Virus record (IMG/VR): IMGVR_UViG_3300042876_000238
Coordinates: 1-64,000 of that record
Direction: 5' to 3' (one strand)
DNA length: 64,000 bases
From: a virus
The translations under genes and the position numbers were made by a program. The notes beneath the pieces were generated by a model. The model was not told the origin of the DNA and made no database searches. It was given only the letters and a program-made list of their open reading frames with translations. Position 1 is the first letter of the stretch; the number at the start of each line of letters is the position of its first letter. This document shows positions 24,146 through 61,323 of the stretch, piece by piece.

Positions 24146-24349
24146 CTAGTGGACCGTGTACCCGTACTGGGCAAGTTCGCACATGGCATCCCACGCCCGC
24201 TGCGTGCAGCGAAGTGTCTCCATGCGCAGTGAAAGTTCCGGATGTCGTTTCAGGTATTTCTCGACGATCGCTTTGTTGGTGGCGTAGTACCTTGGCTCGC
24301 CTGTGCTGGACTCGACGACGTAGAGTTCAAGCTCGTGCTCATTCGTCAT
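24146..24349 (-). CDS. Small phage protein, function unknown (67 aa)
   Basis: ATG at 24349 overlaps the end of the giant virion gene by 11 bases; GAGGGAG lies about 12 bases upstream. Acidic start, then helices with Cys and aromatic residues. No motif recognised. Confidence 0.55.
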   Translation of the reverse strand: MTNEHELELYVVESSTGEPRYYATNKAIVEKYLKRHPELSLRMETLRCTQRAWDAMCELAQYGYTVH

Positions 24350-27300: not shown

Positions 27301-30300
27301 TCCTTCGATTGCACGGCGAAGTCGTACGTGCGCCCACGCCACGCTGCGGTGGAGCGGAAGCGATCGATCAGGTCGTCGGCGACATCGACGCCCGTATAAC
27401 GCCGGTAGGCAAGCTTGCGCCCTTCCGACAGGTTCTGATACTTCGCGTTTTCGCGAGCCGTGAACTCGCGTCCGGAGAACGTCTGGTCACGCAGCGAGAT
27501 TGCGATGTCCAGCAGATTGTCGTACTCCGGCGACATTCCGAGCAGCCGACGTACAAGCTCGACGACACGCTCCCAGAGCGTGCCGTTGATAGACTGGACC
27601 CGCGCCGCTTTCATCTCATCCTGAAGGGACTTGTTCGAGAACACCTCCGCCACGAACTCGAATACGTCTTCGTCGCCATACATGAGCGCGTCGCGGTTAG
27701 CGACAAACTTCGAGTTGATGCGGTTGTAAGTCATGCGGCGAAGCTGCTGCCACGCGCCCCGCAACGAAGCATTGTTGAGAAGTTCCGTGGTGCTCGCCGC
27801 ATGCACTGCCTCGTGCAACACGACATGTATGAACTCGTTCGGATACCGCATGAACGGCGCGTTCATGTTGAGCGCTATGAACGGCCGACCGCCCGGCTCG
27901 TTCGGAGCGAACAACTGTCCGCCGTCAGCGTTGTCCGCAAAGTCCCACGAAGGAATGACTTCGAGAGTATTCATGTTAGGCAGGCGCAGAAGTGCCTTCA
28001 CCGTATTGCGGTACGGGCTGTCAGCGGGCAGGTGCGTATCGAGGATACGTAGCACCTGTCCGAGCTTCGGCAGCGTAGACTCCTCGAAGCCACCAACGTA
28101 GCTCGCCAACCGCTCCATCGCCTCCGAATGTGTGCCGTCGAGTTCAGATGCGACGATGGGGGAGACTACCCGCACCTTCAGTCCGCGCTTGCGCGCATCG
28201 AGGCGTGCAGCACGAATCCTGTCACGCTCCTCTTTCGGCAACGCACGGAACTGTTCCGACGTTACGTCGGGGCGAGTTGGGTCGAATGAAGTGAGGGCCT
28301 CGACGTTCTGCACGTTCGCGCGGGGGTTGTCGAGCAGCATGCGTGCCTGACGGATCGTGGCCCGCTCTTCCGCTGGCAGGGCGCGGAACTGCGAAGCCGT
28401 AAGATCCTTGCGTGCCTGCTTGATAAGCGCCAGACGCGCAGTACGGATGCGTGCGCGCTCTTCTTGCGGGAGCACCCTGAACTGCGCCGCAGTGAGATCC
28501 GGCCGATGCGGAAGCAGTTCAGGCCGTACGTCCGTTTCCGACTCAGACGGCAGTGCCGAAGTCCGCCTGAACTCGGCGATGCGCGCAGCGCGCACCTTTG
28601 CCTGCATTTCCTTCGACAGGTTGCGAAACTCGGTCGGGGAGACGTTGAGGTACTCCTGAACGTCCAAGCGTTCGGCGGCCCGGCGGGCTTCCGGCGTCAT
28701 GTTGGCGCGACGCTTGGCTTCTGCCACACGTGCAGCGCGAATAGCCTCGCGCCGGGCCTCCGGCAACCTGCGAAACTCGGCTTCTGTGATGTCGGGCCGA
28801 TACGGCAACAGCGAAGCCGTGGTCGGCGTGACGCTATCAATCACGAGCTTGGTGTCGGCCTTCGGCTTTCCGAGATCGAGGAATGTATCCCGAAGCTCCT
28901 GCTTTGCCTGTCGCGCAGTAATCTCCTTGCGGGCGAGACGCGGCCCAACGCGCCGATTGTACGAACGTGCGTCGGACGAAAGCAGATCGCCGATACCGTC
29001 CCGCTGCCACACGCCAATCTTGCGCAGGCTGTCGTAGAACTTCTGTTCTGCAAGCGAGATGTCGGCGTTTACAACCGCCCTGTCGAGCACATCCATCAGC
29101 TTGTTGACGGCAGTATCGTATTGCTCCATCTGGCGAGCACGTACTTCCTCGCGCGTCGGTGCTGGAGGAGCGGGCGGGGGCTCTTCGACGCGTTGCGGGA
29201 GTTCGGCCTCTGCCGCACGTTGCTCCTTGATTTCAGGCCGCGTCCAGCCGATGACGTTACCGTCCTCGTCGATATCAAAGCCGAGCCCCTCCAGCCGACG
29301 AAGTAGCGGGGCTTCGATCATATCCATTACGGGCTCCGCGGCTTCCTGTAGCCGCATGGACCCGCGGGCAAAGCGACGATCTCCAAAGTCTGCCCACACG
29401 TTCGTACGCAGCTTATCGAGCCCACGTGCGACGGTAGCGACCGCTACGTCGCTGACTGTCCCGCCCCGCCGCGCAAGCATCATGATCGGCTGAATGTCAC
29501 GCCGATACACTTCTTGCGCAGCATCCATCCACTGCCGGTACGCATTCTGCAGATCGTCAAGCGCCTTGACGCTCGCCTCTTGCTGCGGCCCAGTACGCCA
29601 CTTGACGCCGCGCAGGTAATTCATCTGATCGACAGTCATCTGGCGTAGCAAGTTACCGAGCGCGTCGGACTTACCATCTACCCACGCATCGAACGCCTTG
29701 AGTAGCTCGTTACGATCGAGCTTAATAGCCGGAGCGTCAGAAAGTATCCTTGGGTCAGAGCGCACGGCCAACCGCACGTTCTCGCGCGTCTGGGCACGCC
29801 CAAGCGCGGCAAGCCTTGCCGCCAGCTTGTCTTCTGGCGCGCTAGACAGGGACGTCAGTAGGTCTGAGATCTCGTCGGCCATCTTGGCTGCGGCGAGCGT
29901 GCGGTTGCCGCTACGCAGGAGCGCGATAGCGAGCTTGTGCATGCTGCGCAGGTAAGCCCGGCCGTAGGCTGCGTCGTAGTTGTCGGTGACTATGCTATGC
30001 ATGCGCACCATAAGACGTTCTGCCGCCTGAGTCGCCTTGGAAAGTGCGCGCATCGACGCGTTTGCTTTCTCGACGTTAGCCTTGCGTTGCTCTGCGCTGA
30101 CTTCGCGCTCCTTGGCCGATACGTCTTCGCGGAACAGCGGCGACAAGTCGAGGGTGCCGCCTTTCGCCCCGCGACGTTCAGACTTGACGGCTTTCGGCGA
30201 ACGCCCCATCACGCCGGACTCGCGCTGACTCAGCAACGCCTGTGCACGACGGATGATCTTGAGCTTCTCGGAAGGCGTGGTGTAGTCGGCGACGTACTGA

Positions 30301-33300
30301 TCGACCGTACGCCCAGACGCCATACCTTGCGACATGTCTGCGATGGACGGATCGATCGAAACATCGGCTTCCTGCAGCGCGTCGGCACGGCGCTCGAAGT
30401 CACGGGCACGGGCAGGGCGCAGCCCCGACAGGAAGTTCGCGGCCTTAAGGAACTCCTGTTCGAGACGTCCGCCTTTGAGGTTGTCGACCTCTTCCGGCGT
30501 CATCGGCGTTAGCGTGCCGATTTCAGGCGTCTCGACGCGTGTCACCCGATCGTTGTAACGCGTGGCACGGCGCGCTTCAGTGCTATCGACCTCGATGGCG
30601 GCGCGCGACAGGTCTCCTGCCACGGTCTCGATGGTGTAAGACTGAAGCAGCGCACGCAGACCTTGCTCGACATCGTCAATATCGGAATCGATATCAGAGA
30701 TGGCTTTCTCTGCTGCGGCTTTGCGCTCGCGCACGGCGTCGAGCCGCTTCTGATATGCAGGAGTGTTCTGCCCGCGCTCGTTGCGCAGGGTCGACGTCTG
30801 TGGCGTCTTCAGTAGCTCGCCTTCTTCCTCGAAAGCAGCGTCGAGTTCGTCCTGCTGATTACGACGTTCGTCCAGCAGCGTGCTCCGCTTCTCGTGGAGA
30901 GTGGCGTATCGCTCGTTCGCATCTTCCGAGCGCTGAGTCCGTGCCGCAGCGATCTCTTCTTTCGTCCGCTTCCGTGTGCGGGACTTAGCCCACTCTCCCT
31001 GCTCCCGCCGCTGCGTGATGCGCTGCGCTTCGTAACTTGCTCTCGCCTTGCGAGCTTCGTCGCGCGCAGCCTTGGCTGTGGCAGTAGCGGCATCACGGGT
31101 GCTCTCGCTCGCACGACGCGCAGCCTTCTCCAGCTTCGCCGCACGAGCGCTGAGACGCTCCGCCTGCTTCTTGACTCCCCGCAATGCCTTGCGCCGCTCG
31201 CGCCACGACTGAAGTTCTTCCTCCGGCGCTTCCACGACGGTGTCCGAAACGTCCGCACGCGAAGCGAGGCGAATATCTCTCGGTGCGGGAATGCCGCTGC
31301 TTCCGGCACGCATCCGCCGTTCTGCCTCTGCCTGCAGCGCGGCATCGGTGAGGCGCTGGGCCGCGACACGCTGATTGCCCTCAGTGAAGTTGGCCGTGGC
31401 GACCTTCTTGGCCTGTTCGGCAACCTGCGGGTCGCCGACGCGCTCAAGGGCTTTCGACACCCTCTTGGTCGTGCGACCAACGTCACGCTCTTCGCCCAGT
31501 GCTTCGTCTTCGGCGGCGACGATGCGCGCACGCCGGGAAAGCGCAGCACGCGGATCGAGGATCACCGTCTCGCGCGCCGGATCTTCGCGATCCCACTGCG
31601 CAGCGAGGGCGTCAGCTTCTGCCTCGTCGCGAACCAGCGATTCGCGCGTGACACTGCCAGTCGCCGGATCACGCTGCTGGACGACGACGCGCCCGTCAGC
31701 AGGCTTGCCCGAACCCGCGCCCGTAGCGAGCCCGAGGATCTCCTGCATCGGTACGCCCTGCTTGCGCATCGCCAGCAGTTCGTCAGCGACCTTGCGGTTC
31801 TTCGCGATCAGCGTGCCGCCACGGAGATCGAAATTCATCAGTGGTACGCCGTTGCGGCGCACACGCTCCAGAACGCCCCGCTGCCGCAAGCTGGCTACGT
31901 TGTCCCGAGACAGGTAGAGACCAAGCCGCGGGCTGTCAGGGTCAGCCAGATCGATGCTCTGAGTGAGGATGTCCTGCAGTGGCTCCGCTGTCGGCTGGTC
32001 AGGTGCCTGACGCTCCCGTCCCGCGAGTACGGAGACCGGCTCGACCGTCCACAACGTGTCGTCGCTCGTCAGTTCTCCCTGCTCGTTGAGGGAGTACTCG
32101 TCCACGAGCGCCTGTCCCTCTTCACGGCTCGCAACGTCCTGCGTGAAGCGGACCGTCCCGTCCGGGGCGCGACCGGTGACGGTGAAGCCGAGTAGCTGAC
32201 GCCCCGACGGCACGGACGGACCGGCGGGGGGTTCGCCGGGGCCGCCGTCCGCCGGGGCGTCGAACATGTCGATCTGGTTCTCGTCCCTGACCGTGCCACC
32301 GTAGGCAGGCATCAGGAGCGGGTTGGCGATGTCACTGCCCTCGCGCGTGCGCTGCTGCGCCGCCCGGATGACATCGGCGCGCGTCGGCCGCCGCCCGGCC
32401 GGGTCGGTGTTGACCGGCAGGCGCTCGTTGGAGAACTCCGGCGGCACGCTCTGGTCGGCCATCGGGTCCTGTGCTGCCACGCCGGGCGTGGGAGTGATAA
32501 TGGGTGCGCCCATCCCCCGCTCGCGCGGGCCGCGGAGCCCGAGCGACTGCTGGATCGGCTCCGCCGGGACGAGCGCGGTCGACGGCGGCGTCGGCGGCTC
32601 CCCGTACGTGTACTGAAACTGGTTCTGGCGTAGCGCGAACCCGGCCGGGTCCGTGCCGCCGAACGCCATCGGCTCTTCCGTCGTGAAGTCCCGTTGGATG
32701 AGGCCGCGGTCCATCTCCCCGCCGCGACGGTTGGCGTACGCCACCGCATCGACCAAGGCAGGGTTGTTTCCGCCGCCGACCCGCGCCATAGCTACGTCGC
32801 GAGGCGGGTCTGGCGCGAGGATGTCGGGCTGCCCCGGCGGCGGGCCGAACATCTCGCCCTGCCCGTAAGACATCGTCGGCTGGGCGGCAAGGTCTGCCTC
32901 CTGCAGCGACTGGAGGTCGGAGTTCTTGATCGCCGCAGCGACCGCCGGGTCCACGAACTGCTCCGTGGGGGTCGTCTGGGGGACAGGAGGCGCAGGTTCG
33001 CGCCGCTGCCGCTGCCCAAGGGCCGCAGAGAAGCCGCCGCCCATGAGGCCACCAATGACGCCACCCTCGACCGTCGCCTCGCCTACGCCTTCGTAGGGGC
33101 TCCTGTCGGTGTCGTAGATCTGGGCGGCGATGTTCTGTGCCGCCTGCTCCGCCGCGCTCTGGGCGGCCTCCTGTGGGGCTTCTGCGGCGAAGCCCGTGAG
33201 CGCCCGGCGGCTGAGGGACATCCCGCCCTCCCGGACGAACACCGGTTCGAGGTAGCGGCCCGCGACGGCCGAGATCGCGCCGACGGTCGCGCCGCCGATC

Positions 33301-34100
33301 AGCGGGGCCGCGCCCTGAGCCTCTTGGATCAGACGCTGTCTCGCTTCACCTGCTGGGAGACCTTCCCGGAGCATCTGCTGGTAACGGGGAGACTCAGTCT
33401 GGAGTTCCTCCTCCGTCATCCCCTCGATCTCCTGCGCCACGCCGTTGGCGATGCCGCCCATCGAGAGTGCGCCTTCGGAGGCTCCGAGGTAGGTGATTGC
33501 CCCCGGCGTCATGCCTGCCTTGAACAGGCGCGCCGCAGGGAGAAGCGTGACGAGCGTGGAGGGAAGCGCCCGGCCGAGCTTGTAGCCCACGGCGGAGAGG
33601 AACTCGCCCGGTCCCCCCTGCCAGATGCGCTGCTCAGGGTCGAGCGTCAGCCACTGCCGGGCAAGGCGCTCCTGCGCCTCCGGACTCATGCTGGCAGTGA
33701 TGTCTTCGGCGACCCCCGAGAGGCCGCGCCGCCCGGCCGCGAGCCGGTCGGTGACGAACGAGTTGTTCTCGTCTCCCAGCAACTGCCGGGAGCCGTATTC
33801 GAGCGCGCCGGTCGCCATCGCGCCGGTCTCGGCGAGCGCCGCGCCGATGTTCTTGATCGAGTCGCCCCACTTGGTCTCCCCCGTCGCCTTGGGAGCGACG
33901 GGCGTACCCATCAGCGCGTCGAGGTCGGCCTCGAACTGGTTCAGGTCGAACCCGGCACCGCCGTCGGTGGGGAGTGCACGGCGCGTCGCGGCACCCAGTG
34001 AACTGCCGAACGACTGCGTACCCAAGGCGCGCGGCTTGTTCGGGTCGATCTCCGAGAGGCGTGGATCGCCGTACGGGAACAACTCGTTGTAGGTAGCCAA
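24339..34100 (-). CDS. Giant internal virion (ejection) protein with HExxH and LPD38-like region (3253 aa)
   Basis: At 9.8 kb this is the largest gene. It starts with TTG, supported by AGGAG 7 bases upstream and an otherwise closed frame. Seen in order: Gly/Ala-rich hydrophobic segments (about 170-350), long Pro-rich and polar linkers, a strongly charged coiled coil (about 965-1100), five repeats of about 35 residues (about 1757-1980), a zinc-peptidase-like HEAVH (2096-2100), and a C-terminal region (about 2715-2960) with NLTQPW, QFNYSGAN-like and FQFMKYPQHMY segments typical of polyvalent phage proteins (LPD38-type, from memory). Such giants are packaged in the head and ejected with DNA. No RNA polymerase motifs are visible. 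Confidence 0.8.
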   Translation of the reverse strand: MATYNELFPYGDPRLSEIDPNKPRALGTQSFGSSLGAATRRALPTDGGAGFDLNQFEADLDALMGTPVAPKATGETKWGDSIKNIGAALAETGAMATGALEYGSRQLLGDENNSFVTDRLAAGRRGLSGVAEDITASMSPEAQERLARQWLTLDPEQRIWQGGPGEFLSAVGYKLGRALPSTLVTLLPAARLFKAGMTPGAITYLGASEGALSMGGIANGVAQEIEGMTEEELQTESPRYQQMLREGLPAGEARQRLIQEAQGAAPLIGGATVGAISAVAGRYLEPVFVREGGMSLSRRALTGFAAEAPQEAAQSAAEQAAQNIAAQIYDTDRSPYEGVGEATVEGGVIGGLMGGGFSAALGQRQRREPAPPVPQTTPTEQFVDPAVAAAIKNSDLQSLQEADLAAQPTMSYGQGEMFGPPPGQPDILAPDPPRDVAMARVGGGNNPALVDAVAYANRRGGEMDRGLIQRDFTTEEPMAFGGTDPAGFALRQNQFQYTYGEPPTPPSTALVPAEPIQQSLGLRGPRERGMGAPIITPTPGVAAQDPMADQSVPPEFSNERLPVNTDPAGRRPTRADVIRAAQQRTREGSDIANPLLMPAYGGTVRDENQIDMFDAPADGGPGEPPAGPSVPSGRQLLGFTVTGRAPDGTVRFTQDVASREEGQALVDEYSLNEQGELTSDDTLWTVEPVSVLAGRERQAPDQPTAEPLQDILTQSIDLADPDSPRLGLYLSRDNVASLRQRGVLERVRRNGVPLMNFDLRGGTLIAKNRKVADELLAMRKQGVPMQEILGLATGAGSGKPADGRVVVQQRDPATGSVTRESLVRDEAEADALAAQWDREDPARETVILDPRAALSRRARIVAAEDEALGEERDVGRTTKRVSKALERVGDPQVAEQAKKVATANFTEGNQRVAAQRLTDAALQAEAERRMRAGSSGIPAPRDIRLASRADVSDTVVEAPEEELQSWRERRKALRGVKKQAERLSARAAKLEKAARRASESTRDAATATAKAARDEARKARASYEAQRITQRREQGEWAKSRTRKRTKEEIAAARTQRSEDANERYATLHEKRSTLLDERRNQQDELDAAFEEEGELLKTPQTSTLRNERGQNTPAYQKRLDAVRERKAAAEKAISDIDSDIDDVEQGLRALLQSYTIETVAGDLSRAAIEVDSTEARRATRYNDRVTRVETPEIGTLTPMTPEEVDNLKGGRLEQEFLKAANFLSGLRPARARDFERRADALQEADVSIDPSIADMSQGMASGRTVDQYVADYTTPSEKLKIIRRAQALLSQRESGVMGRSPKAVKSERRGAKGGTLDLSPLFREDVSAKEREVSAEQRKANVEKANASMRALSKATQAAERLMVRMHSIVTDNYDAAYGRAYLRSMHKLAIALLRSGNRTLAAAKMADEISDLLTSLSSAPEDKLAARLAALGRAQTRENVRLAVRSDPRILSDAPAIKLDRNELLKAFDAWVDGKSDALGNLLRQMTVDQMNYLRGVKWRTGPQQEASVKALDDLQNAYRQWMDAAQEVYRRDIQPIMMLARRGGTVSDVAVATVARGLDKLRTNVWADFGDRRFARGSMRLQEAAEPVMDMIEAPLLRRLEGLGFDIDEDGNVIGWTRPEIKEQRAAEAELPQRVEEPPPAPPAPTREEVRARQMEQYDTAVNKLMDVLDRAVVNADISLAEQKFYDSLRKIGVWQRDGIGDLLSSDARSYNRRVGPRLARKEITARQAKQELRDTFLDLGKPKADTKLVIDSVTPTTASLLPYRPDITEAEFRRLPEARREAIRAARVAEAKRRANMTPEARRAAERLDVQEYLNVSPTEFRNLSKEMQAKVRAARIAEFRRTSALPSESETDVRPELLPHRPDLTAAQFRVLPQEERARIRTARLALIKQARKDLTASQFRALPAEERATIRQARMLLDNPRANVQNVEALTSFDPTRPDVTSEQFRALPKEERDRIRAARLDARKRGLKVRVVSPIVASELDGTHSEAMERLASYVGGFEESTLPKLGQVLRILDTHLPADSPYRNTVKALLRLPNMNTLEVIPSWDFADNADGGQLFAPNEPGGRPFIALNMNAPFMRYPNEFIHVVLHEAVHAASTTELLNNASLRGAWQQLRRMTYNRINSKFVANRDALMYGDEDVFEFVAEVFSNKSLQDEMKAARVQSINGTLWERVVELVRRLLGMSPEYDNLLDIAISLRDQTFSGREFTARENAKYQNLSEGRKLAYRRYTGVDVADDLIDRFRSTAAWRGRTYDFAVQSKEATHSGVLSAMTVSQIEDSFKKLFETETGNPLSNWYRAFAARNADNSANMEEVDRRSRVWSTLKEKDRDNEANTSRIMTQATVHGVHPDVPLSHANNEHIKTDGKRAKHAELSRAYAALPQEWKDHYQAVKKYYAETHEKQQALAVLNALRAYLTIGKNAPMKLAEFEAKYNEDNVLKKGLNTKKGLEKEFASLIEEGALTQNAVASMARLGALRTMSDGPYFPVQRFGKYAVYAEKLRETKTFGTTKELNAYREALLSDDPTLQFKRGSDNLSLEVWEVEFRMAETPSEAQRAYDEMVALYGKFDPATEQGARPVNIKRDAFTDGAAIAGTRGLRSILDRLEGNAAAQAAIKNFYLASLADTSFRKREARRKNTRGFPETEQHRTFASYSKAAAYYMSQLRYGWKMADARADIKNLAEQRGVRAGQVAREIKLRDDMSIDPEEMSPGVMKANEITQFMLLTSVSYWAINLTQPWMVTLPYLGAKYGQANAAKALSRAQSLIFKPIKDEAKASWLGLKALGSKAAAENAFSVLDDVKDTIRRNGGARSNDYLDMLTKLQRQSIIDLSLVAELRQIADGSNVNTKWQRTLDASRIMSHLTEVNNRILTAVAAYDLALDRGLTHEQAIKEAEGAVERTQFNYSGANAPRLFQQGGPLGKAGPLLFQFMKYPQHMYALMIRQVFRALRNPTERREALKILGGISATHLAVGGILGWTLQPFKWALGMIIAGLDDEDDRAQDVISGAKYDRSVREFAYNALGDDLGRAVSKGPVGAMLGVDLSTRMSLGTLYFLDLNAENTESLLGSLVASFGGPALNIGMTALNAPKYLAEGDVSKAVEAITPKFVKDVFKAARMADEGITGRDGTVYVSPDKITFGDTVRQGLGFGTMRASESFAKGEAIRVREDVQKAKRAKLMRRFVNADSDAERAEALEAIREFSKSATNPVTRSDILKYMRRRYDRNARIAEFGADLRGRNVLLAEEGDPYEYDE

Positions 34101-45297: not shown

Positions 45298-46188
45298 TCA
45301 TCCCGTGTACATGATGTAGCACAGCGCGTAGTACGGCGGCAGCGTATCGACGGTCGCGGTGTGCGTGTGAGCGCCGTCCGAGGAGATCGTGTGGGTGTGC
45401 GCGTTGCCACTGCCAGCAGACGTCGTCGCCACCTGCCCGTCGAGGTTGGGGCTACCCTGTTCGGTAATGAAGTCTATGTCCGCTCCAGAAGAGCTTGCGT
45501 TCGACCCACGATAGCCGACGTTATGCGTATGCGCTGGCATCTGGTCGACCGTCAGAGACGTCCCGCCAGTTGCACCGGAGTGCGTGTGTGCGCCTTCTGA
45601 CGAAGTCGTGATCGCGTCGGTAGCTGCGCCGCCAGTGGCGGCCGGGGCATATGCGCCACCTGCGCCGACGATGAACCGGCCGCGAAGATCCGGCGTACCG
45701 TTAGTGCCGTCGCACAGGGACCAGCCAGTCGGGATCGAGACGACCGAGCCGCTCCACAGCATGATCATGCCGTTGATGTAGACGCTGTCGGTCGGAATCG
45801 AGACGTTCGATCCGAGCGCGCCTGAGTCAATCGTGTAGCCGCCAAGGTTCAGGTTGCCGCCGAGCGTGTCGCCTGAACGCTGCAGGAAGCGCTCCATCGT
45901 CCCCTTCGTGTCGCGAAGCTCGCAACGGGTAACGGTATTCGTGAACGCCTGCGCCAGCGTGCCCTCCTGCGCTCGCTGCACGGTGAGCAAGTCACCTGAA
46001 CGCGCCGTGCACTTCATCACCTCGATGTTGGCGGTATTGTCTTCGAGCGTCAGCATGAACCAGTCACCACCGGTGGGCGAAGGGAACAGCGCACCGTAAC
46101 CCGCCTGAACCTGTACGGTCAGGTCGGAATCGATGATGCTCACCGCAAGCGTAGCGCTGGCACCGTTAGAGAAGAGTTGCTTCGCCAC
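45298..46188 (-). CDS. Tail collar-domain fibre protein (296 aa)
   Basis: GTG at 46188 with TAGGAGTAGG upstream. The N-terminal half resembles a virion-binding fibre start (QAGYGALFPSPTGGDWF). Residues about 140-175 (GMIMLWSG, IPTGWSLCDG, TPDLRGRFIVGAG) are a phage tail collar domain. A His-rich C-terminus with repeated HTH/AHTHT likely coordinates metal ions in a trimeric fibre. Confidence 0.8.
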   Translation of the reverse strand: MAKQLFSNGASATLAVSIIDSDLTVQVQAGYGALFPSPTGGDWFMLTLEDNTANIEVMKCTARSGDLLTVQRAQEGTLAQAFTNTVTRCELRDTKGTMERFLQRSGDTLGGNLNLGGYTIDSGALGSNVSIPTDSVYINGMIMLWSGSVVSIPTGWSLCDGTNGTPDLRGRFIVGAGGAYAPAATGGAATDAITTSSEGAHTHSGATGGTSLTVDQMPAHTHNVGYRGSNASSSGADIDFITEQGSPNLDGQVATTSAGSGNAHTHTISSDGAHTHTATVDTLPPYYALCYIMYTG

Positions 46189-47244: not shown

Positions 47245-48234
47245 TTAGCCCTTCTCGACGAACGCGCGTCCCATCGCGACGCCGTTCACCACCCGGAAGC
47301 CGTAGACCTGAAGGCCACGGAGCAGGTTGCTGAACGAGCGCTCGCTGCGCAGGGTCTCCATCTTCGTGAACTGCGACGCGAACGTGAGCGCCGCCGTCGT
47401 GCCGAAGAAGACCGCCTTCTCTTCCGTGTAGCCGCCGCCCGACGCCGGGAGGAGGTTCGACAGGTAGAGCGTGAAGCGGTCGATCATGCCGAGACGACCG
47501 TTGCGCAGGATCGAGGTGCCGTCACCCGCGAGCGAGGCGTCGCGGAGATCCGACTTCTTGATCATCGACGCCATCCACGCCGGGATGATCATCCAGCGGC
47601 CCGACTCCGGGATGTTCTGCTCGTCGAGAACCTGACCGGCATCGACGATGAAGTCGATGACGGACTTGTCGTTCGAGTTGCTGGAACCGTCGCCGGTACC
47701 CGCGGAAGCCTTCTGCACGAAGCAGGGTGCGCCCGGCGTACCGAGGCGGATGTCCTGCGAAATGCGTCCGGCCGTGTTGCCACGGTTGAAGGCGCTGATG
47801 TCGGTCGTGGTGCCGAGCGAGGTCAGGACCGCGGTGTCGATCGCGATCTTGAACTGCTCCGACGCCTCTTCCGCCCAGACAGACATCTGGTCGATGTCCG
47901 ACTGCACGGCCATGACGTCGTCGAGGGCGACGTTGAAGTACTTGCCCTTGTCGATCTGCAGTTCGATGACATCCGAACCCGGACGCTCGACCAGCAGGTC
48001 TTGGTTGACTTCGTAGTCGCGGATCGTGATCGACGGGCGCGTGCGGATGATGACCTTGTCGCCCTGATTCTTGATCTCACCTTCGTAGTCGGTGTTCGAG
48101 ATCGCGGCGAGCACGGTGGCATCGTAGAACTTCTCCAGCAACTTCCCGGACCAGATCTCCGGGATGAACGTGCCAGAGTAGGCCGGGGTCGGGTTACTAC
48201 CCGTCCACGGCGAACCTGAAATTGGATACGGCAT
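47245..48234 (-). CDS. Major capsid protein (329 aa)
   Basis: ATG with AGGAG upstream. The sequence has features of an HK97-like coat protein: N-terminal arm with FIPEIWSGKLLEKFY, long strands (GDKVIIRTRPSITIRDYE), the spine helix QSDIDQMSVWAEEASEQFKIAID, and a C-terminal A-domain-like portion (SERSFSNLLRGLQVYGF). Follows the scaffold gene and precedes a strong terminator. Confidence 0.85.
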   Translation of the reverse strand: MPYPISGSPWTGSNPTPAYSGTFIPEIWSGKLLEKFYDATVLAAISNTDYEGEIKNQGDKVIIRTRPSITIRDYEVNQDLLVERPGSDVIELQIDKGKYFNVALDDVMAVQSDIDQMSVWAEEASEQFKIAIDTAVLTSLGTTTDISAFNRGNTAGRISQDIRLGTPGAPCFVQKASAGTGDGSSNSNDKSVIDFIVDAGQVLDEQNIPESGRWMIIPAWMASMIKKSDLRDASLAGDGTSILRNGRLGMIDRFTLYLSNLLPASGGGYTEEKAVFFGTTAALTFASQFTKMETLRSERSFSNLLRGLQVYGFRVVNGVAMGRAFVEKG

Positions 48235-53169: not shown

Positions 53170-55263
53170 TCAGCCTCCTGAAGGGGTGCCGCTACCAGCG
53201 CGGCCGTTGTTGGCGAACTGCTGCTCGCTCCCGGACTCCTTGCGCACCTGCTCGGGACCGTTGCGCGCGTTCTCGGGGCCGGGGATCTGCCCCATCGGAA
53301 CGCCGCCGGGCGCGCCGGGAGCGAGCGGCAGTCCGCCCATCATCTGCTTGAGTGTGTCGTCGTCCGGCACGATGACTTCGCCATCGAGGCCAAGCTCGTT
53401 CGCCACCGACCGCAGTACGTTCGCGCGGCCAATCGGACCGATGAGGTTGCTGTCGAGCGGGTTGGCCGTGATCTGCAGGAACTCCAACTGGCGCATGCGG
53501 TCCTGCTCGCGCTTCTGCGCGTGGTTCACGCCCTTGACGATGATCTTCTCGTCACCGCGGAACACGCCCGGCATGGTCATCATGATCATGTCGTAGAGTT
53601 CCTGCAGCATGGGTTCCACGACGTCACGGTCGATTGACGCAGCGACGTTCTGCAGCGTCTTCGACGCATTGCCCATCAGCATCGCAAGACCGGACGCCGT
53701 ACGCCCAGCGCCGCCCACCTTCTCGTTGCCGACCATGTAGCGCGGAAGTGCGCTCACCTCGTCAGCCATCGCGTTCAGTTTCTCGTAGACGCCCAGCAAG
53801 ACGTCAGCGTATGAGTTGGGCTGGAAGAACTCGATCGGTTTCGACCCGCTCGCTGCGAGCATGGGGTCGTAACGCGTATGCCAGCGCTTCCACGGGTACA
53901 TGTCGTCGGTCTCGCCGGGAGCGAGTACTTCGTCGTTGATCACCACCTGCGGACCGGATGCGATCGACAGGTTGTTGACGAGTGCACGCATCGTGGCATT
54001 GCCGACCGACTGGACGTCGTCGAGCAATTCCGGAAGTGCGGTACCGGCGATCGAGCCGGGCACCTTCTCGAAACTGGAGATGTAATAGTTCGGCCGCTGC
54101 CGCGGCGACGGTGCAATCTGCACCTTGATCACGTGGCGATCGATCAGCCACGCCTGCACTTTGTACTCTTCGAGCGGGTCGGGAACCTTCATCGGGTCCA
54201 TACCCCAGTCGAGTAGCGTCTTGCCGCTCACGCTGCCGTGATATTCCGCGGTGTCGATGAGACCACCGCTCGTGCGCGGCCAGCGCTCACGTTCTTCGAG
54301 CGCCGCACGCTCCGCGTCCGTGGTGTCCCACCAGTCGCGGAACCCGCGATTGCTGAACTGGTCGAGCACCTGATCGATCGCGACCTTGTTGTAGCCGGGA
54401 AGATCGCGGACGGAACGAAGATCTTTGCGCGTGAGGCGGATGCGCTCGACGAACTCCGCCTCCATCACATTAGATGCGCCGGGCGACCAGTACAGGTCGA
54501 ACGGCGAGACGCGATACCAGTTGAGCTTCGGCTTCTGGACGACGACACACTGCCCGCCCTGCCATGTGATCTGCGGAGCCATCCGGACGACAGGACCCTT
54601 GATCACTGCGTACGGGAAGATGGGCAGATCGATCAGGAACTCGGCAAACGCCTCGTAGAAACTGCCCTCCCACAGGAGGTCGTCGACCTTCTCCGCGGCG
54701 CGAGAGACTTCCTCTTCCGCCTGCTTTTTGGCAGCGCGCTCGGCCGCCTTGCGCAGCATCTGTACCCGGTCGGCGATCTGCTGCTGATCAATTGGCATGC
54801 CAGACTGCTGCAGTGTCGCGACTTCGACGCTGACAAGCTGCTGGATCGTCTGCTCGATGTTCTGGGGGACTTCGGGGACCGGGGTGGGGTCGATGTCCCA
54901 CGGACGGTCAGGGCCGAGATAGACGTCGCGGAGGAGGGCCGTAGCGGCTCGGCATTTGGTTGCCGTGATGCGGGCGTAGACTTCACTGCCTGACGTCTTC
55001 CTGATCTCCTGCAGCTTCGCTGCATCGTACTGGCCGCGGTACGCGCGCAAGCCGTCGATCAGTTTCTGCGCGATGCCTTCCGTGTTACGGAAGTTGCGCA
55101 TCTCCTGCATTCGATCCCTGATGTGGGAGACGAGTGCGGGAAGCTCCGGTTCCTGCTCCGGCTGCGGTAGGGCAGCCTGCGCCATCTCGTCCAGCCCACG
55201 ATTGGTGACGACCCTGAGTAACCCGTGGCGGGTAGGAACGGAGGAGGCGGGGGGTTGGAGCAC
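53170..55263 (-). CDS. Portal protein (697 aa)
   Basis: GTG at 55263 with AAGGGGA upstream. Size and sequence fit podoviral portals: MQEMRNFRNT near the start, a long helical/wing region with Gln/Glu-rich coiled coil, FPYAVIKGP, PRYMVGNEKVGGAGRTASGLAMLM, and a Gly/Pro-rich C-terminus. Forms the dodecameric ring through which DNA enters and leaves. It is divergent from the terminase genes. Confidence 0.85.
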   Translation of the reverse strand: MLQPPASSVPTRHGLLRVVTNRGLDEMAQAALPQPEQEPELPALVSHIRDRMQEMRNFRNTEGIAQKLIDGLRAYRGQYDAAKLQEIRKTSGSEVYARITATKCRAATALLRDVYLGPDRPWDIDPTPVPEVPQNIEQTIQQLVSVEVATLQQSGMPIDQQQIADRVQMLRKAAERAAKKQAEEEVSRAAEKVDDLLWEGSFYEAFAEFLIDLPIFPYAVIKGPVVRMAPQITWQGGQCVVVQKPKLNWYRVSPFDLYWSPGASNVMEAEFVERIRLTRKDLRSVRDLPGYNKVAIDQVLDQFSNRGFRDWWDTTDAERAALEERERWPRTSGGLIDTAEYHGSVSGKTLLDWGMDPMKVPDPLEEYKVQAWLIDRHVIKVQIAPSPRQRPNYYISSFEKVPGSIAGTALPELLDDVQSVGNATMRALVNNLSIASGPQVVINDEVLAPGETDDMYPWKRWHTRYDPMLAASGSKPIEFFQPNSYADVLLGVYEKLNAMADEVSALPRYMVGNEKVGGAGRTASGLAMLMGNASKTLQNVAASIDRDVVEPMLQELYDMIMMTMPGVFRGDEKIIVKGVNHAQKREQDRMRQLEFLQITANPLDSNLIGPIGRANVLRSVANELGLDGEVIVPDDDTLKQMMGGLPLAPGAPGGVPMGQIPGPENARNGPEQVRKESGSEQQFANNGRAGSGTPSGG

Positions 55264-55343
55264 AGGCGTCCCCTTGCTAAATTTGCGCGGAGTGTGGGGT
55301 TTCCCCCATCATGTTGTCAAATCTCTCCGAACAGGGTATGGGA
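55264..55343. promoter_or_regulatory. Divergent portal-terminase intergenic region
   Basis: Only 80 bases, with leftward TTGACA at 55316-55321 but no convincing -10 at 16-18 bases. A promoter in each direction is expected here since the genes diverge. Confidence 0.35.
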
Positions 55344-55838
55344 ATGGCAACCAAGCAGGCTGTCGTGCCAAGCGACAAGACCGTGGTGCCGGGGACCGAC
55401 ACGGAACTCGACATCTCTGATTTGAGCCCACAAATCGCTGCAGAACTCGCGGCGGGGCTGCTCGACGCCGACGGCGTTTGTGAGAAGTACGGAATCGCCG
55501 CGGCGCAGTGGGAACGCCTGCGCAAGAACCCCTCGTTTCGTGACATGCTGAAGGAAGCCGTGACCGTCTGGCGCGGCGAACTGAATGCAGGTCAGCGCAT
55601 CACCAAGAAGGCGGAGATCGTACTGGAAGAGGCGATCCCGATTCTGGATACGATGATCCACGACAGTAAGCTCCACCCTGACTCGCGCCTGAACGCGATC
55701 AAGCAGGTGGAGTCCCTCACCGGTCGCAAGGCGAAAGAGATGGGACAGGGCGGTGCGGGCATGTTCAACCTGACGATCAACATCGGAAAGGGCAAGGGCG
55801 TGACCGTGGAAGGCGTTGCGGAGCCCGTCAGTGAGTAG
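55344..55838 (+). CDS. Terminase small subunit (164 aa)
   Basis: ATG 55344 is preferred; ATG 55311 gives 11 more residues but no ribosome binding site. Helix-turn-helix-like N-terminal region (AAGLLDADGVCEKYGI...WERLRKNPSF), a helical middle, and a C-terminal tail. Directly upstream of the large terminase with an 8-base overlap, so it probably binds the packaging site on DNA. Confidence 0.75.
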   Translation: MATKQAVVPSDKTVVPGTDTELDISDLSPQIAAELAAGLLDADGVCEKYGIAAAQWERLRKNPSFRDMLKEAVTVWRGELNAGQRITKKAEIVLEEAIPILDTMIHDSKLHPDSRLNAIKQVESLTGRKAKEMGQGGAGMFNLTINIGKGKGVTVEGVAEPVSE

Positions 55839-57279
55839 TTCGCCGTGGGTAGGTCAGAACCCCGGTCCGCAACCTGCGAGCGGCCCGATCGCCTATAACG
55901 CGCCTCCGACGATCTCGCAGTTCATGCTGGACAACAGCGAGGTCCGGCTCATCCTCGGACCGTACGGCTCCGGCAAGACGACAGGCTGCATCATGGAACT
56001 TGCCCGTCGCATGCTGGAGGAGTATCCGGACACGCAGGGCGTGCGCCGTACGCGCTTCGTGATCGTCCGTAACACCGCGCAGCAGTTGCGCCAGACGATC
56101 CTCGAAGACATCCGCAAGTGGCTCGGTAGCGTGATGAGCTACAAGGTCACTGACTCGACCGTGCAGTTCAATTTCCGGCATCCGCAACTCGGCAAAATCG
56201 AGTCCGACTGGATGCTCATCCCGCTCGACAAGCCGGAAGACCAGCAGCGCCTGTTGTCGCTGAACATCACCGGCGGTTGGGTCTCGGAGTTCCGCGAGAT
56301 CCCCATCAGCGTGTTGGAAGCGCTGCTGGGACGCGTCGGCCGCTACCGTCCCCTCGGTGTGGCGAAGAACGCGTGGCACGGCATCATCGGCGAATCCAAC
56401 CCGCCCGACGAAGACAGTGAGTGGTACACGAAGCTGGAGATCGAGTGCCCGAAGAACTGGAAGCTGTTCAAGCAGCCGGGCGGCATGTCTCCCGAAGCCG
56501 AGAACCGTGAGAACCTGCGTGACGGCTACTACGAGTCGTTGATCGAGTCGAACAACGCCGACTGGGTCGACGTACACGTGCACGGAAAGTACGGCAAGAG
56601 CCTGTCAGGTCAGGCCGTGTTCCGTGCCAGCTTCAAGCCCGACTTCCATGTCACGTACAACGACCTGAAGCCCGTGCCGGGACGTTCACTCCTGCTGGGA
56701 CAGGACTTCGGTCGTACGCCCGCGAGCCTGATCGGTCAGGTCGATCCGAAGGGCCGCCTGCTCATCTTCCGTGAAGTAACGACGGCTGACATGGGCATCG
56801 AAGGCTTCTGCACATCGCTGCTCCGCCCTGAGCTTATCGAGCACTTCCCCGGCTTCGCGCACCTGATGGTGGGAGACCCGACAGGGCGGTACAAGGGCCA
56901 GTTGAATGAAGATAGCGCGTTCGATGTCCTGAGCCGCCTCGGCTTCAAGGTGCGCGGCGCGCCGACCAACGACGTCGAGCCCCGGCTGCGTGCGGTCGAG
57001 CAACTGTTCCTGCGCCAGATCGACGGCGGGCCTGCGATCCTCATCGACGGCGGGAACTGCCCGCTGCTCGTGCAAGCACTGAAGTTCCACTATCGCTACA
57101 AGCGAAAGCAGAACAAGGAGCTTGAGGACAAGCCTGAAAAGACGCACCCGTGGTCCGACATCGTGGACTGCCTGCAGTATATGTCGCTGGCAGTCTCAGG
57201 AAATATAGTCGGGCGGTTTCTCTCCGAAAATGTTTCCCGGATCACTGCCCCCCGCCCGTCCGTGCAAGGTTGGACGTAG
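55831..57279 (+). CDS. terL: Terminase large subunit (482 aa)
   Basis: Packaging motor and nuclease. Walker A GPYGSGKTT (Gly43-Thr51), an ATPase domain to about residue 250, then the RNase H-like nuclease with Asp292 (GQDFGRTP), Asp349 (GDPTG) and Asp443/Asp446 (SDIVDC). GTG 55831 has GGAG upstream and an 8-base overlap; a TTG at 55816 is the alternative. The 3' end overlaps the leftward orphan segment at 57196. Confidence 0.9.
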   Translation: MSSSPWVGQNPGPQPASGPIAYNAPPTISQFMLDNSEVRLILGPYGSGKTTGCIMELARRMLEEYPDTQGVRRTRFVIVRNTAQQLRQTILEDIRKWLGSVMSYKVTDSTVQFNFRHPQLGKIESDWMLIPLDKPEDQQRLLSLNITGGWVSEFREIPISVLEALLGRVGRYRPLGVAKNAWHGIIGESNPPDEDSEWYTKLEIECPKNWKLFKQPGGMSPEAENRENLRDGYYESLIESNNADWVDVHVHGKYGKSLSGQAVFRASFKPDFHVTYNDLKPVPGRSLLLGQDFGRTPASLIGQVDPKGRLLIFREVTTADMGIEGFCTSLLRPELIEHFPGFAHLMVGDPTGRYKGQLNEDSAFDVLSRLGFKVRGAPTNDVEPRLRAVEQLFLRQIDGGPAILIDGGNCPLLVQALKFHYRYKRKQNKELEDKPEKTHPWSDIVDCLQYMSLAVSGNIVGRFLSENVSRITAPRPSVQGWT

Positions 57280-57402
57280 CGGCTTGAATCCGAACTCGGC
57301 CAGTATCTGCGCGTCTATCTGCGCAGCCATCTGCGCCGACAGGTAGCTGAGATACTCCTCCCTGAAGTCTTTTTCTTCCGGGTTAGCGCGCTGCCACGGG
57401 CT
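57196..57402 (-). pseudogene. Orphan coding segment after the glycosyltransferase gene, no start codon
   Basis: Continuing the leftward gene at 57402-58127 in the -1 frame gives 67 further residues with a strongly protein-like, helical pattern (FREEYLSYLSAQMAAQIDAQI...). Nothing encodes it on the plus strand except the terminase tail up to 57279. There is no ATG, GTG or TTG near its beginning; the first ATG (57330) would leave 44 residues. It is either a frameshifted extension of the glycosyltransferase, or the remains of a truncated gene, or a small gene with an unusual start. Confidence 0.4.
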
Positions 57403-58127
57403 TACTTGTAGTGTAGCGGTATCCAGTCGCACATTTGGAGAGCAGTGGGCGACCAAGGATCGATATGCCCCTCGAAGAACACGATGCGCGCAGTCTCGGG
57501 CAGCTTTCCAGCGTGAGGCTTGATGTCCATGCGGAAACTGAACACGCCGTCCTTCTTCGTCCATCGTGATTCGTGCGGCCCCAACTTGTAGCTGATCCAA
57601 GCCTGATCCGAACCATGATATCCGGCATTCATGGCTTTCTGCGGAGAGGTTGCCGGATCGAAGTCGTCCCAGATTTGTCTGCGGGCACCCGCGGTCATCA
57701 TCTGCATCGACCCGTTGTATGGCGTCGTCCTGAGCGTCTCTCCCCATATCACGAACTCCTCTTTGCGGTCCCATACGGGCGTGACGTCACGGACGATCAC
57801 GACATCGAGATCGAGCGACACGAACCTTTCCGCCAGCCATTCGCTCGCGTCAGCGCCATACATCGGCAGGCGGCGATAGCATGTCGGATTGAGTCCTCCA
57901 TGCGGTGAGGGCAGTGCCGCAAGCTCTTTCCACTTCGGCACAAAACTCGGCGGAATCACGCGGATGCCGGAATCGAGCCCGGCCCAGTCATCGGTGATAC
58001 AGGTGAACTGGTGCGGCGACTTATAGTTGCGCTGCACCATGTTGTAGAGCGCATTCACGTGGCTCGCATCGTGCCTGCTGCGATAGTCGCGCAGCGGCTT
58101 CCACTTCCAGCAGACGACGTTGAACAT
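57402..58127 (-). CDS. Glycosyltransferase-like protein (241 aa)
   Basis: ATG at 58127 in a TGATG junction. VSLDLDVVIVRDV is a GT-A type DxD motif in a 'SLDLD' context, and the rest (HVNALYNMV, FTCITDDW, GSDQAWIS) fits nucleotide-sugar transferases that act on glycans. Last coding gene of the modification cluster. May transfer a sugar onto a host or virion glycan. Confidence 0.7.
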   Translation of the reverse strand: MFNVVCWKWKPLRDYRSRHDASHVNALYNMVQRNYKSPHQFTCITDDWAGLDSGIRVIPPSFVPKWKELAALPSPHGGLNPTCYRRLPMYGADASEWLAERFVSLDLDVVIVRDVTPVWDRKEEFVIWGETLRTTPYNGSMQMMTAGARRQIWDDFDPATSPQKAMNAGYHGSDQAWISYKLGPHESRWTKKDGVFSFRMDIKPHAGKLPETARIVFFEGHIDPWSPTALQMCDWIPLHYK

Positions 58128-58861
58128 CAGATCACCCGCTCCCACTTGAACCTCAGCGGGTTCTTCGCCCGCTCGTCGCCGCTGCGCCGCTTGGCGTCGA
58201 AGCGCTTGCGGTACTCGTCGCCGAACTTCCCTTCCTTGCGGGGGAGGTCCGTGTTCGCATCCGCGACGACATCTCTCTCAACACCGTAGAGCAGAACATC
58301 GTCGAGGTGGCAGCGAGGAGCAAGCACGTTAAGCTGGCGAAGGAAAGGACCGTCACCGCCGTACGTGCCGCAGTAGTCTTCGTCATAGCCGTTCACCGCC
58401 CAGTAGACGCTGTGCTTCACGAGGAACGTGTTGCAGTGGTACTTCCTGCGCGTGCAGTCAGGGAGGAAAGTGCGCTCGAACGTGTAGTACCGCGCCGGAT
58501 CGAGCTTGCGCGAAAACAGGTCGTACGCAACTTCGGGCGTGAGGATGATGTCCATGTCGGACATGAAGAGCCAGTAGTTGTCGTCCACGTGACAGGCGAC
58601 GTTCGCGCCAAGATTGCGCGCCCCGTGCTGGTTCCACGGGATGTCCTCAGTGATCCGGTACAGCCGCTTCGGGATCTTGCAGTCGCGGAAGATCGGCTCC
58701 GCCGGGTACTTCTGGCTGCCGTCGTCAATCAGGATTACCCGCACGTGTTTACGCAAGTCACCGGCATAGCGATTCCAGTTGTCCACCTGCCGCGCGAGCA
58801 TCTGCGGGTTCTCGTAGTACGGATACACCATCCGCACGGTGTTGAACTCAACATCCGCCAT
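58127..58861 (-). CDS. Family 2-like glycosyltransferase (244 aa)
   Basis: GT-A fold: LIDDGS near residue 44, MSDMDI (DxD) near 96, and NGYDEDYCGTYGGDG near 155, as in GT2 enzymes. Overlaps the upstream gene by 14 bases. Probably transfers sugars from nucleotide-sugar donors. Confidence 0.8.
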   Translation of the reverse strand: MADVEFNTVRMVYPYYENPQMLARQVDNWNRYAGDLRKHVRVILIDDGSQKYPAEPIFRDCKIPKRLYRITEDIPWNQHGARNLGANVACHVDDNYWLFMSDMDIILTPEVAYDLFSRKLDPARYYTFERTFLPDCTRRKYHCNTFLVKHSVYWAVNGYDEDYCGTYGGDGPFLRQLNVLAPRCHLDDVLLYGVERDVVADANTDLPRKEGKFGDEYRKRFDAKRRSGDERAKNPLRFKWERVI

Positions 58862-59468
58862 CGAGCATCCCCTTCATCTGATCGAAGCTGATTTTCGGAA
58901 AGACCGAAAGCTCGCTGCGATGAGTGACGTTGTAGACGTTGATTCCCTCCACGAGTAGCTGGGCGTGGAAGCGCGAAAGCTCGACCACCCAGTCACGGAA
59001 GTGCCCCGGCTTGGTCGCGCCCGCAGGCTGCGTCCACGGATACGGCGGGTACCAGTACGGCTCGCCGTTCGGTCCCTTGCACATGTCGAAGCCGAGCAGA
59101 TAGATGTTGTCGCCGCGCTTGGAGTGCTGGTACGCGAGGTTGAGCGCGCACGCACCGGAGTTCGACCCGGCCAGCGTGCCTTCGTCCTTCTGCAGGTAGT
59201 CCGTACGCAGGTGCTTGAAGACCTTGCCGTGATGCACCTTCACGTTCTTGTCGCAGCCTTCGCGAATCCAGATGTCCATCACCTGCTTCGCCTTCAGGTA
59301 CGGCCAGCGGTTCTCGAACCACAGCCGATCCATCGTGATGCAGGTGTGTACGTCGGTCCACAACGCCGCGTCGTTGATTCCGTACACGTGTGCCTGATGC
59401 GTCAGGTAACGGTGCGGGTATCCGGCGACGGTAGATCCGCCGCCGATGACGATCTTGTTAGACGACAT
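58848..59468 (-). CDS. DUF115/sialyltransferase-like (MptE-like) protein (206 aa)
   Basis: GGGSTVAGYPHRYL at the start and GSNSGACALNLAYQHS, then NIYLLGFDM, are the Rossmann-type pattern of DUF115-like and phage 'norphogenetic' glycosyltransferase relatives. Aromatic-rich PYWYPPYPW may bind a sugar. Lies inside the glycan cluster. Confidence 0.65.
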   Translation of the reverse strand: MSSNKIVIGGGSTVAGYPHRYLTHQAHVYGINDAALWTDVHTCITMDRLWFENRWPYLKAKQVMDIWIREGCDKNVKVHHGKVFKHLRTDYLQKDEGTLAGSNSGACALNLAYQHSKRGDNIYLLGFDMCKGPNGEPYWYPPYPWTQPAGATKPGHFRDWVVELSRFHAQLLVEGINVYNVTHRSELSVFPKISFDQMKGMLDGGC

Positions 59469-60006
59469 CCCAAGTCCTCGACCCGGACACGACGAGTTGC
59501 GACTTCGTCTCCTTGTGCACCTTCCACTTCATCTCGCGGAACGCCGCCTGCAGCTTGGCGAACCACCAAGAGGCGGGGTGGATCGTGATGTGCGTGTTGC
59601 GCCCGTCTGGCAGCAGGCTCTTAGAGAGTGCGGTGTCGATGTTGAAGAAGATACCCCACTTGGCGAGCCGGTCGAGCGTCTCCAGCGTCGCGTCGACCTT
59701 GTCTTCCTCCACGTGCTCCATGACGTCGGTGCAGACGATGAAGTCGACGCAGTGCCACTCCAGCTTGTCCTTGCCGCGCACGCCGGGGTCGTACTCATAG
59801 ATGACCGCGTCGGGGCGGTATTCGAGCATCGTCGGCTTGAACGTACCGCGCCCGCAGCCGAAGTCGAGGATCGTGAAGCCCTCGTTGAAGCGATTCAGCA
59901 GCGGCGCGATCGTTGGAATCCACGAGGCTCCGCCGCCGCCCCACGCCTTCTGGTCGTGCTTCTGCGTGAGCAGGGCTTTGTATTCCGGGCTGATCAGGGT
60001 TTCCAT
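59458..60006 (-). CDS. SAM-dependent methyltransferase (182 aa)
   Basis: ILDFGCGRGTF (motif I, SAM binding) near residue 46, and a CTDVMEHVEED region (motif II/III). Small class I methyltransferase. Overlaps its neighbours by 11-13 bases. In this cluster it likely methylates a sugar. Confidence 0.75.
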   Translation of the reverse strand: METLISPEYKALLTQKHDQKAWGGGGASWIPTIAPLLNRFNEGFTILDFGCGRGTFKPTMLEYRPDAVIYEYDPGVRGKDKLEWHCVDFIVCTDVMEHVEEDKVDATLETLDRLAKWGIFFNIDTALSKSLLPDGRNTHITIHPASWWFAKLQAAFREMKWKVHKETKSQLVVSGSRTWDVV

Positions 60007-60593
60007 GCGAGCCTCACGTGCTTCTTGCCGCGATCGAGGACTTCAGGACGGCCGAAGGCGCGGACAAACTCTTCGAGCCAATCCCTCCGCGTGTGGCGAA
60101 CGTCCAGCACGACGGTTGCATTCTTGTTGAGGGAAGCCTTCACCTGCGGCAGGTAGTCGCCGGGGAGGATGTGGAACCCCCACGCCGCAAAGCTGACGAC
60201 CAGATCGAACTTCGTCCCGAAGTCCTGCGTGTGCGGCGGAAAGTGCGTGTGTCGTAACACGCCGTTCTTACGTAAGAAGTCACGGGTCACTCGGGCGTCG
60301 TTAAACGGCTTCGAGTGGCTCGAAACCACTGGTGGATCGTCGAGCCCGTCGAGAGTGTGAACATGTAGATCGGGATAGCGATGAGCAAGCAGAACATCGA
60401 TACCGCCCAGACCGCTGCCCACATCAAGTACGCTAGCGCACTCATCAGGAAGAGCAGAAGCGATAGAAGCCATGATCGCATCGAGCGATTCGAGGTAGGC
60501 GTCGCGCCATGCGTCGAACCCCTTCTTGTGCGCATCGCTGACTTCTCCCCGTTGGATCAGCAGATACTTGAAGTGATCTTTCTCGATGATCAT
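59994..60593 (-). CDS. SAM-dependent methyltransferase (199 aa)
   Basis: ATG at 60593 in an ATGA junction. VLDVGSGLGGIDV (motif I, near residue 57) and LVVSFAAWGFHILP place it in class I methyltransferases; it is distinct from the neighbour at 59458. Probably acts on a glycan with the other cluster enzymes. Confidence 0.75.
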   Translation of the reverse strand: MIIEKDHFKYLLIQRGEVSDAHKKGFDAWRDAYLESLDAIMASIASALPDECASVLDVGSGLGGIDVLLAHRYPDLHVHTLDGLDDPPVVSSHSKPFNDARVTRDFLRKNGVLRHTHFPPHTQDFGTKFDLVVSFAAWGFHILPGDYLPQVKASLNKNATVVLDVRHTRRDWLEEFVRAFGRPEVLDRGKKHVRLAWKP

Positions 60594-61243
60594 TTGGCAT
60601 ACCCCCGCCAGAACATGCCAACGTGCCCAAGGTCGATCGCGTGTACGCCCTTGCGCGAGAGGCGCATGGCGAGGCACGTGGCGGTCGGCCCGGCGCAGAG
60701 GATGACGCGATCGAACTTCGATTTCAATACAGCAGTTTCGAGATCGTCGATCACGGCGTAGGCGTCGCGCCGCGGGCACTGGATGAAGGCGACTGCCGCC
60801 GCCCCGGTGTCCATCAGGAACTCGGTCTTGATCGACCGTTCCCCGCAGCCCACGAGCGCTACCTCGCGTCCCTCCCACAGCGACTGCATGCGGTCGAAGT
60901 ACTCCTTGCAGTCGATCCACGGGGCACTGTCGGGGCGGGAGATGAAGGCCGAGAAGTACTCCTTCTTCGGGCTCATCTGCCGCGGATAGATGTGCTTGTA
61001 GCGCGCCCACCTGTCGTACTTCGGCCCCGCCGGGTCCATCGTCGGGATGCCGACGAGACATTGCTTGTCGTTTGCCAGCAGGATTGAGGAAAGCTCCTCG
61101 GCGAGCTTCTTGTCCGCAATCTGGGAGACGCAGGAGCCGCCCTTGGCAATCTTGAACTCGCCGTCGCCGAAGCGCGCGATGCTGCGCCCCTTGAGGACTT
61201 CCGCGAGGGTGAGGTGTTCGTTGACGACGCGTGGATAGTGCAT
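60590..61243 (-). CDS. GT-D fold glycosyltransferase (DUF1792-like, 217 aa)
   Basis: SIARFGDGEFKIAKG at residues about 21-36 is the signature of the DUF1792/GT-D glycosyltransferase family; VGCGERSIKTEFL and GPTATCLAMRL complete the Rossmann-like pattern. First gene of the leftward glycan cluster, with AGGTAA before the ATG. Confidence 0.75.
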   Translation of the reverse strand: MHYPRVVNEHLTLAEVLKGRSIARFGDGEFKIAKGGSCVSQIADKKLAEELSSILLANDKQCLVGIPTMDPAGPKYDRWARYKHIYPRQMSPKKEYFSAFISRPDSAPWIDCKEYFDRMQSLWEGREVALVGCGERSIKTEFLMDTGAAAVAFIQCPRRDAYAVIDDLETAVLKSKFDRVILCAGPTATCLAMRLSRKGVHAIDLGHVGMFWRGYAK

Positions 61244-61297
61244 TTACCTGCCGCCTGAGCTATATTCAAATCTTCTTTGCTTCCTTCCCCCCAATTT

Positions 61298-61323
61298 GGC
61301 CCGCCTCGTGCGGGCCACTTTTT
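61298..61323 (+). terminator. Terminator-like hairpin facing right
   Basis: 7-bp stem (61298-61304 with 61310-61316, 5-base loop) followed by ACTTTTT on the plus strand; on the minus strand there is no T-run after it. All nearby genes run leftward, so it would stop rightward or antisense transcripts. Confidence 0.5.

Follow-up and report, generated by a model that had tools for sequence, protein, structure and literature searches.

The DNA analysed here, which we call the window, comprises 64,000 of the 64,256 bases of the IMG/VR virus record IMGVR_UViG_3300042876_000238 and contains 84 genes according to a coding-potential gene call. The original prediction had proposed a six-gene glycan-modification cluster of a phage at positions 57402-61243, and this region is indeed filled by six open reading frames (ORFs) on the minus strand, named here GT-D, MT1, MT2, SIA, GT2, and GT6. 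From right to left they are:

60590-61243, minus strand: GT-D, a glycosyltransferase of the GT-D fold (DUF1792), 217 amino acids (aa); PF08759 E 8.9e-32, TIGR03728 E 1e-30
59994-60593, minus strand: MT1, class I S-adenosylmethionine (SAM) methyltransferase-like, 199 aa; Methyltransf_23 E 3.8e-5, under the curated cut-off
59458-60006, minus strand: MT2, class I SAM methyltransferase, 182 aa; PF13489 (Methyltransf_23) E 3e-9, phrog_24759 methyltransferase E 1e-23
58848-59468, minus strand: SIA, a DUF115/sialyltransferase-like transferase, 206 aa; phrog_4603 alpha-2,3-sialyltransferase E 9.3e-13
58127-58861, minus strand: GT2, a GT2-family glycosyltransferase, 244 aa; PF00535 E 4.2e-6
57402-58127, minus strand: GT6, a GT8-like glycosyltransferase of the GT-A type, 241 aa; phrog_1962 'glycosyltransferase' E 5.1e-10

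Because all five junctions overlap (by 4, 13, 11, 14, and 1 bp), the six genes form a single coupled leftward operon, as had been predicted. A 355-aa ORF considered as the first methyltransferase was replaced by the 199-aa version at 59994-60593, whose ATG overlaps the GT-D stop, and the best start for GT6 is the ATG at 58127 (241 aa). The gap immediately upstream of the cassette holds a strong GC-rich hairpin (61297-61317; 8 pairs, 7 of them G-C), and a sigma-70 promoter scan gave no match exceeding chance.

The identities of the six genes hold, both by profile matches and by conserved motifs. GT-D scores 111 bits against PF08759 (cut-off 27), the profile built from its family finds the DUF1792/GalT1 structures 5v4a and 4phr (E about 1e-36), and the RxGDGE motif is invariant in the family, with D27-G28-E29 unchanged throughout. 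The MT1 family profile matches phosphoethanolamine N-methyltransferase structures (E 7e-5), and the four glycines G59, G61, G63, and G64 of its LDVGSGLGG motif are invariant. In the case of GT2, the profile matches include chondroitin synthase, the glycosyltransferase listed under 6h1j and GmaR, and both the DD and the DxD motifs are invariant, as are DLD and CYRRL in the GT6 family. The AlphaFold model of GT6 (pLDDT 91.7) retrieved the GT8 enzymes LgtC (1g9r, E 9e-9) and glycogenin (E 3.5e-8) in Foldseek, while that of SIA (pLDDT 85) gave weak matches, human ST8SiaIII being one of the best (E 4e-3, TM 0.38), and SIA has no sequence match in the PDB. No hydrophobic segment of the membrane-helix type is present in any of the six proteins.

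A tblastn search of fetched viral contigs with the six proteins revealed the order GT-D, MT, MT, SIA, GT2, GT6 in many IMG/VR contigs, and the same six families in the same order in so many other phage contigs indicate that the set is not a product of chance. One group of these cassettes belongs to relatives of the window phage, while the contigs of the other (loci L006-L010, L016, and L020) contain no other gene of the window. In wider scans we found GT6 at 454 viral loci and GT-D at 205, and GT6 at 7 loci among the bacterial and archaeal genomes of 84,980 species, several of them prophage-like and carrying terminase genes, so that the GT6 family is practically restricted to viruses. Within the clade defined by the window's major capsid protein (MCP), GT6 is present in 15 of the 24 records searched, and the cassette is therefore accessory, since several long records of this clade (62-67 kb) have no GT6. 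A lone MT2 homologue adjoins the coat protein gene of Roseobacter phage CRP-9 (L267, 12127-12660), which suggests that methyltransferase-only versions exist.

The position of the cassette was studied in 97 non-identical loci that contain three or more of the six families, with iterative hidden Markov models (HMMs) of head and packaging proteins. A gene of either kind was found on the fetched piece at 70 of them, which is a lower bound since a good many of the pieces are short and the range of HMMs is limited, and at 58 of the 97 it lay within 1 kb of the cassette; by a rough and not empirical reckoning, 15-20% of positions in such genomes lie that close to these genes. The median distance between the cassette and the head gene is about 200 bp, with both on the same strand in 60 loci. 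PolA loci had been intended as a neighbourhood control, and that scan gave no relatives. At least five unrelated sets of head genes accompany the cassette:

SU10-type head modules
HK97-type modules, with TerL, portal and MCP followed directly by the cassette
modules with protease-MCP fusions
modules with phrog_146 portals, the cassette preceding the protease
the module of Tetraselmis viridis virus S20, where the cassette separates the head genes from those for head closure

In the phages with protease-MCP fusions we also noted that the portal gene is separated from the first gene of the cassette by one for a collagen-like protein of Gly-X-Y repeats (L029 5688-6464, L041 4571-6067, L063 2148-3539, L170 6513-7304, and L175 2638-3504). 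The protein gp07 of Pseudomonas phage PAJU2 is encoded at a comparable place, and the motif at its end is similar too.

As homologous cassettes sit in the head-gene operons of unrelated phages, virion proteins are the favoured target among the three proposed in the original prediction (O-antigen, virion proteins, and phage DNA). We therefore propose, with a probability of roughly 0.7, that the six genes are a portable cassette whose products attach an oligosaccharide with methylated sugars to one of the structural proteins of the phage, a candidate function deduced from sequence. Four cytoplasmic glycosyltransferases (the GT8-like, GT2, GT-D, and DUF115/sialyltransferase-like enzymes) would draw on the nucleotide sugars of the host in the infected cell and assemble a short oligosaccharide chain on the structural protein itself, and the sugars of this chain would be methylated by one or both of the SAM methyltransferases. 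Three points are what we infer from the genes and their surroundings: a glycan attached to a virion protein as the product, this glycan as the target of the methyltransferases, and the order of the steps. Such a cassette predicts mass shifts of capsid or other head proteins that depend on the cassette genes.

The head operon is a late operon, and thus the position of the cassette shows timing and association, not chemistry. It may reflect late timing instead of the target, and late expression would also fit a second explanation, namely that the enzymes change the sugars of the lipopolysaccharide (LPS) core or capsule of the host, blocking superinfection or preventing re-adsorption of new virions to debris. 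Loci for surface glycans typically contain genes for glycosyltransferases and methyltransferases, and LgtC, the fold neighbour of GT6, is an LPS galactosyltransferase. However, the cassette is not accompanied by any gene for a membrane protein, a flippase, a polymerase, or a GtrA-type protein, GT6, unlike the glycosyltransferases of surface glycans, almost never occurs in bacterial genomes, and the consistent place of the cassette next to the head genes of unrelated phages also speaks against this explanation, which we consider quite unlikely. O-antigen conversion in particular is disfavoured because Gtr systems need membrane proteins, and none was found among the six proteins, nor was GtrA in any of the 32 cassette-bearing records (0/32, with positive control signal in 7 genomes); other late effects on the host surface are possible.

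Modification of phage DNA, in which the transferases would glycosylate a hydroxymethylated base as a defence against restriction, appears very improbable. Virus-encoded glycosyltransferases have been reported to add diverse glycans to DNA (Pyle 2024, as cited in PMC12619734), but this chemistry needs a modified base, and it is disfavoured because the thymidylate synthase/dCMP-hydroxymethylase family (PF00303) is missing in 31 of the 32 cassette records. This family is absent from the window phage, including the replication-region genes scanned, and present in a single one of the 32 records; moreover, the cassette lies beside head genes and not replication genes. The TET/JBP oxygenase family (Tet_JBP) was found in 0 of the 32 records, a result to be read together with the control genomes, which likewise gave no signal.

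The acceptor could also be a Ser/Thr-rich tail fibre or another appendage, which is a subset of virion modification and compatible with the function proposed above. The tail fibre protein encoded at 45298-46188 has 22% Ser+Thr, and Caulobacter jumbo phages carry beside their tail genes a group that encodes a DUF115 protein of the MptE type, a homologue of MT2, and a GT9-like protein (L268, 6445-12077, in Caulobacter phage CcrPW). Most cassettes, on the other hand, adjoin head and packaging genes rather than fibre genes. The neighbourhood thus points to head genes over fibre genes, and Ser/Thr-rich fibres as the acceptor, suggested in the original prediction, are neither supported nor excluded; we regard fibre glycosylation as unlikely.

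A candidate acceptor emerges in one HK97-type clade, in which the MCP has a short terminal tail such as GAFPAGSTT, GAFPSGTST, or GAIPAGESTH where it is followed by the cassette or by no less than its first gene, whereas in relatives without the cassette it ends in GDLGRVA, GDLTPA, or GDVNAPETP. At least two Ser/Thr are found among the last five MCP residues in 30 of 37 cassette-plus and 4 of 16 cassette-minus cases (Fisher p 3e-4, largely from one clade). The end of the MCP is SFPSTGYLE in L188 and L353, which have no cassette. In mycobacteriophages, according to work cited in PMC12619734, glycans have been reported on the C-termini of capsid and tail-tube proteins. These data suggest that the Ser/Thr tail of the capsid protein could be the acceptor in the HK97-type clade, where clade membership confounds the association, and for this reason we have not accepted the tails as proof. 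For SU10-type phages we considered the N-terminal MCP motif WxGSxPSPAYxG as an acceptor and rejected it, as L341 and other relatives that have no GT6 carry a closely similar motif.

Several observations weigh against virion glycosylation as the function of the cassette. The association of Ser/Thr tails with the cassette is mostly that of a single clade (the tree has 5 label changes), and L190 keeps the first cassette gene ('S') yet has the tail TFPSTGYVE. The window's own MCP, of SU10 type, has no Ser/Thr C-terminal tail, and its N-terminal motif is common to cassette-minus relatives. MT1 has a weak family match and is the weakest assignment of the six. Finally, a 2025 paper on the capsid structure of Pseudomonas phage D3, which carries a reduced cassette (described below), has no glyco- or post-translational terms.

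A broader proposal, to which we give slightly less than even chances, is that the six genes represent an island for virion glycosylation that has so far gone unrecognised, moves horizontally, is common in environmental phages, and places a methylated oligosaccharide on capsids, often through a short Ser/Thr tail at the C-terminus of the MCP. In the literature surveyed, virion glycosylation has been demonstrated for a few mycobacteriophages only. If the proposal is true, virion glycosylation would be a widespread phage trait, not confined to a few actinobacteriophages. The hundreds of cassette relatives in contigs of uncultured phages, beside unrelated head modules, suggest that many phages modify their particles with sugars, which would have consequences for the stability of the particles, their adhesion and diffusion, and their recognition by the immune system.

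The phage origin of the window is clear from profile matches to TerL, an SU10-type portal, and a major head protein, and judged by its structural genes the genome is that of an SU10-like podovirus. These marker genes are:

55831-57279, plus strand: terminase large subunit, convergent with the cassette; phrog_2 E 3e-20, the same neighbourhood being seen in related phages
53170-55185, minus strand: SU10-type portal protein; PF23899 E 6.5e-9, phrog_332 E 1e-54
47245-48234, minus strand: MCP, ending in GRAFVEKG; phrog_267 E 3.8e-56

The cassette adjoins TerL and is on the same strand as the portal and MCP genes, and the genes of the small and large terminase subunits (55311-57279) are inverted with respect to both portal and cassette; in the relatives L018 and L019 the large subunit gene has the opposite direction. 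We found no nucleotide similarity of the window to known phages. The closest cultured relatives found are Rhizobium phage RHph_TM3_14A and its kin (57% identity in the MCP and 44% in TerL), which have the same gene layout; none of the cassette genes has a match in them, and a BNR-repeat protein sits at the position of the cassette. Elsewhere in the window, the genes at 11035-12237 and 7816-8874, one of which is DUF2201 metallopeptidase/VWA-like, resemble an ATPase/VWA pair, and both have homologues in RHph_TM3_14A annotated as metallopeptidase and ATPase. The gene at 24339-34100 encodes 3,253 aa and is partially similar (25%) to a very long gene of the Rhizobium phage.

The original prediction also stated that methylated glycans on phages are hardly described. 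This is fair, but the idea was published in 2015 for the mycobacteriophage Corndog (PMC4351075), in which an O-methyltransferase gene and three genes of glycosyltransferase type lie after one another in the space from the portal to the capsid protease; the authors who described this cluster proposed that the capsid is modified by glycans and methyl groups (PMC4351075). Glycosylated proteins have been reported for Che8, Corndog, and Myrna (PMC12363180). The window cassette resembles that of cluster O (Corndog and Firecracker) in having methyltransferase and glycosyltransferase genes among virion structural genes. However, GT2 alone of the six enzymes is detectably related (Firecracker gp35, E 3e-10), and GT-D, GT6, SIA, MT1, and MT2 have no match among the Firecracker equivalents. 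We have therefore rejected homology of the two cassettes, with GT2 as the sole match; Corndog and Che8 are a functional precedent rather than homologues, and the window cassette would work in the manner of the Corndog system.

The second comparison is with the DUF1792/dGT1 pathway of serine-rich repeat adhesins, as the DUF1792 domain of Streptococcus parasanguinis adds the third sugar of the O-glycan on the adhesin Fap1 (PMC5063993). Both systems have a GT-D enzyme, with strong profile similarity, and in the adhesin pathway this enzyme extends an O-glycan on a protein acceptor. In contrast to it, neither the initiating pair Gtf1/Gtf2 nor a serine-rich repeat protein substrate is seen with the window cassette, which adds methyltransferases and the context of a phage head operon.

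Among individual viruses, Tetraselmis viridis virus S20/SI1 has homologues of GT-D (44% identity), MT2, GT2, and GT6 (46%) together with two 'sialyltransferase' genes, these cassette genes lying between head and head-closure genes. It is otherwise an unrelated siphovirus, no match to MT1 was found in it, its annotation is gene by gene only, and it is named in no paper of the literature searched. The Pseudomonas phages D3 and PAJU2 have a reduced cassette in the head-tail operon:

L351 5951-9143 (D3; PAJU2 alike): a DUF115/sialyltransferase-like gene, a further gene, and a methyltransferase gene

This version differs from that of the window in having no match to GT-D, GT2, or GT6 and in a methyltransferase not detectably related to MT1 or MT2, and D3 and PAJU2 provide a cultured model for the reduced cassette.

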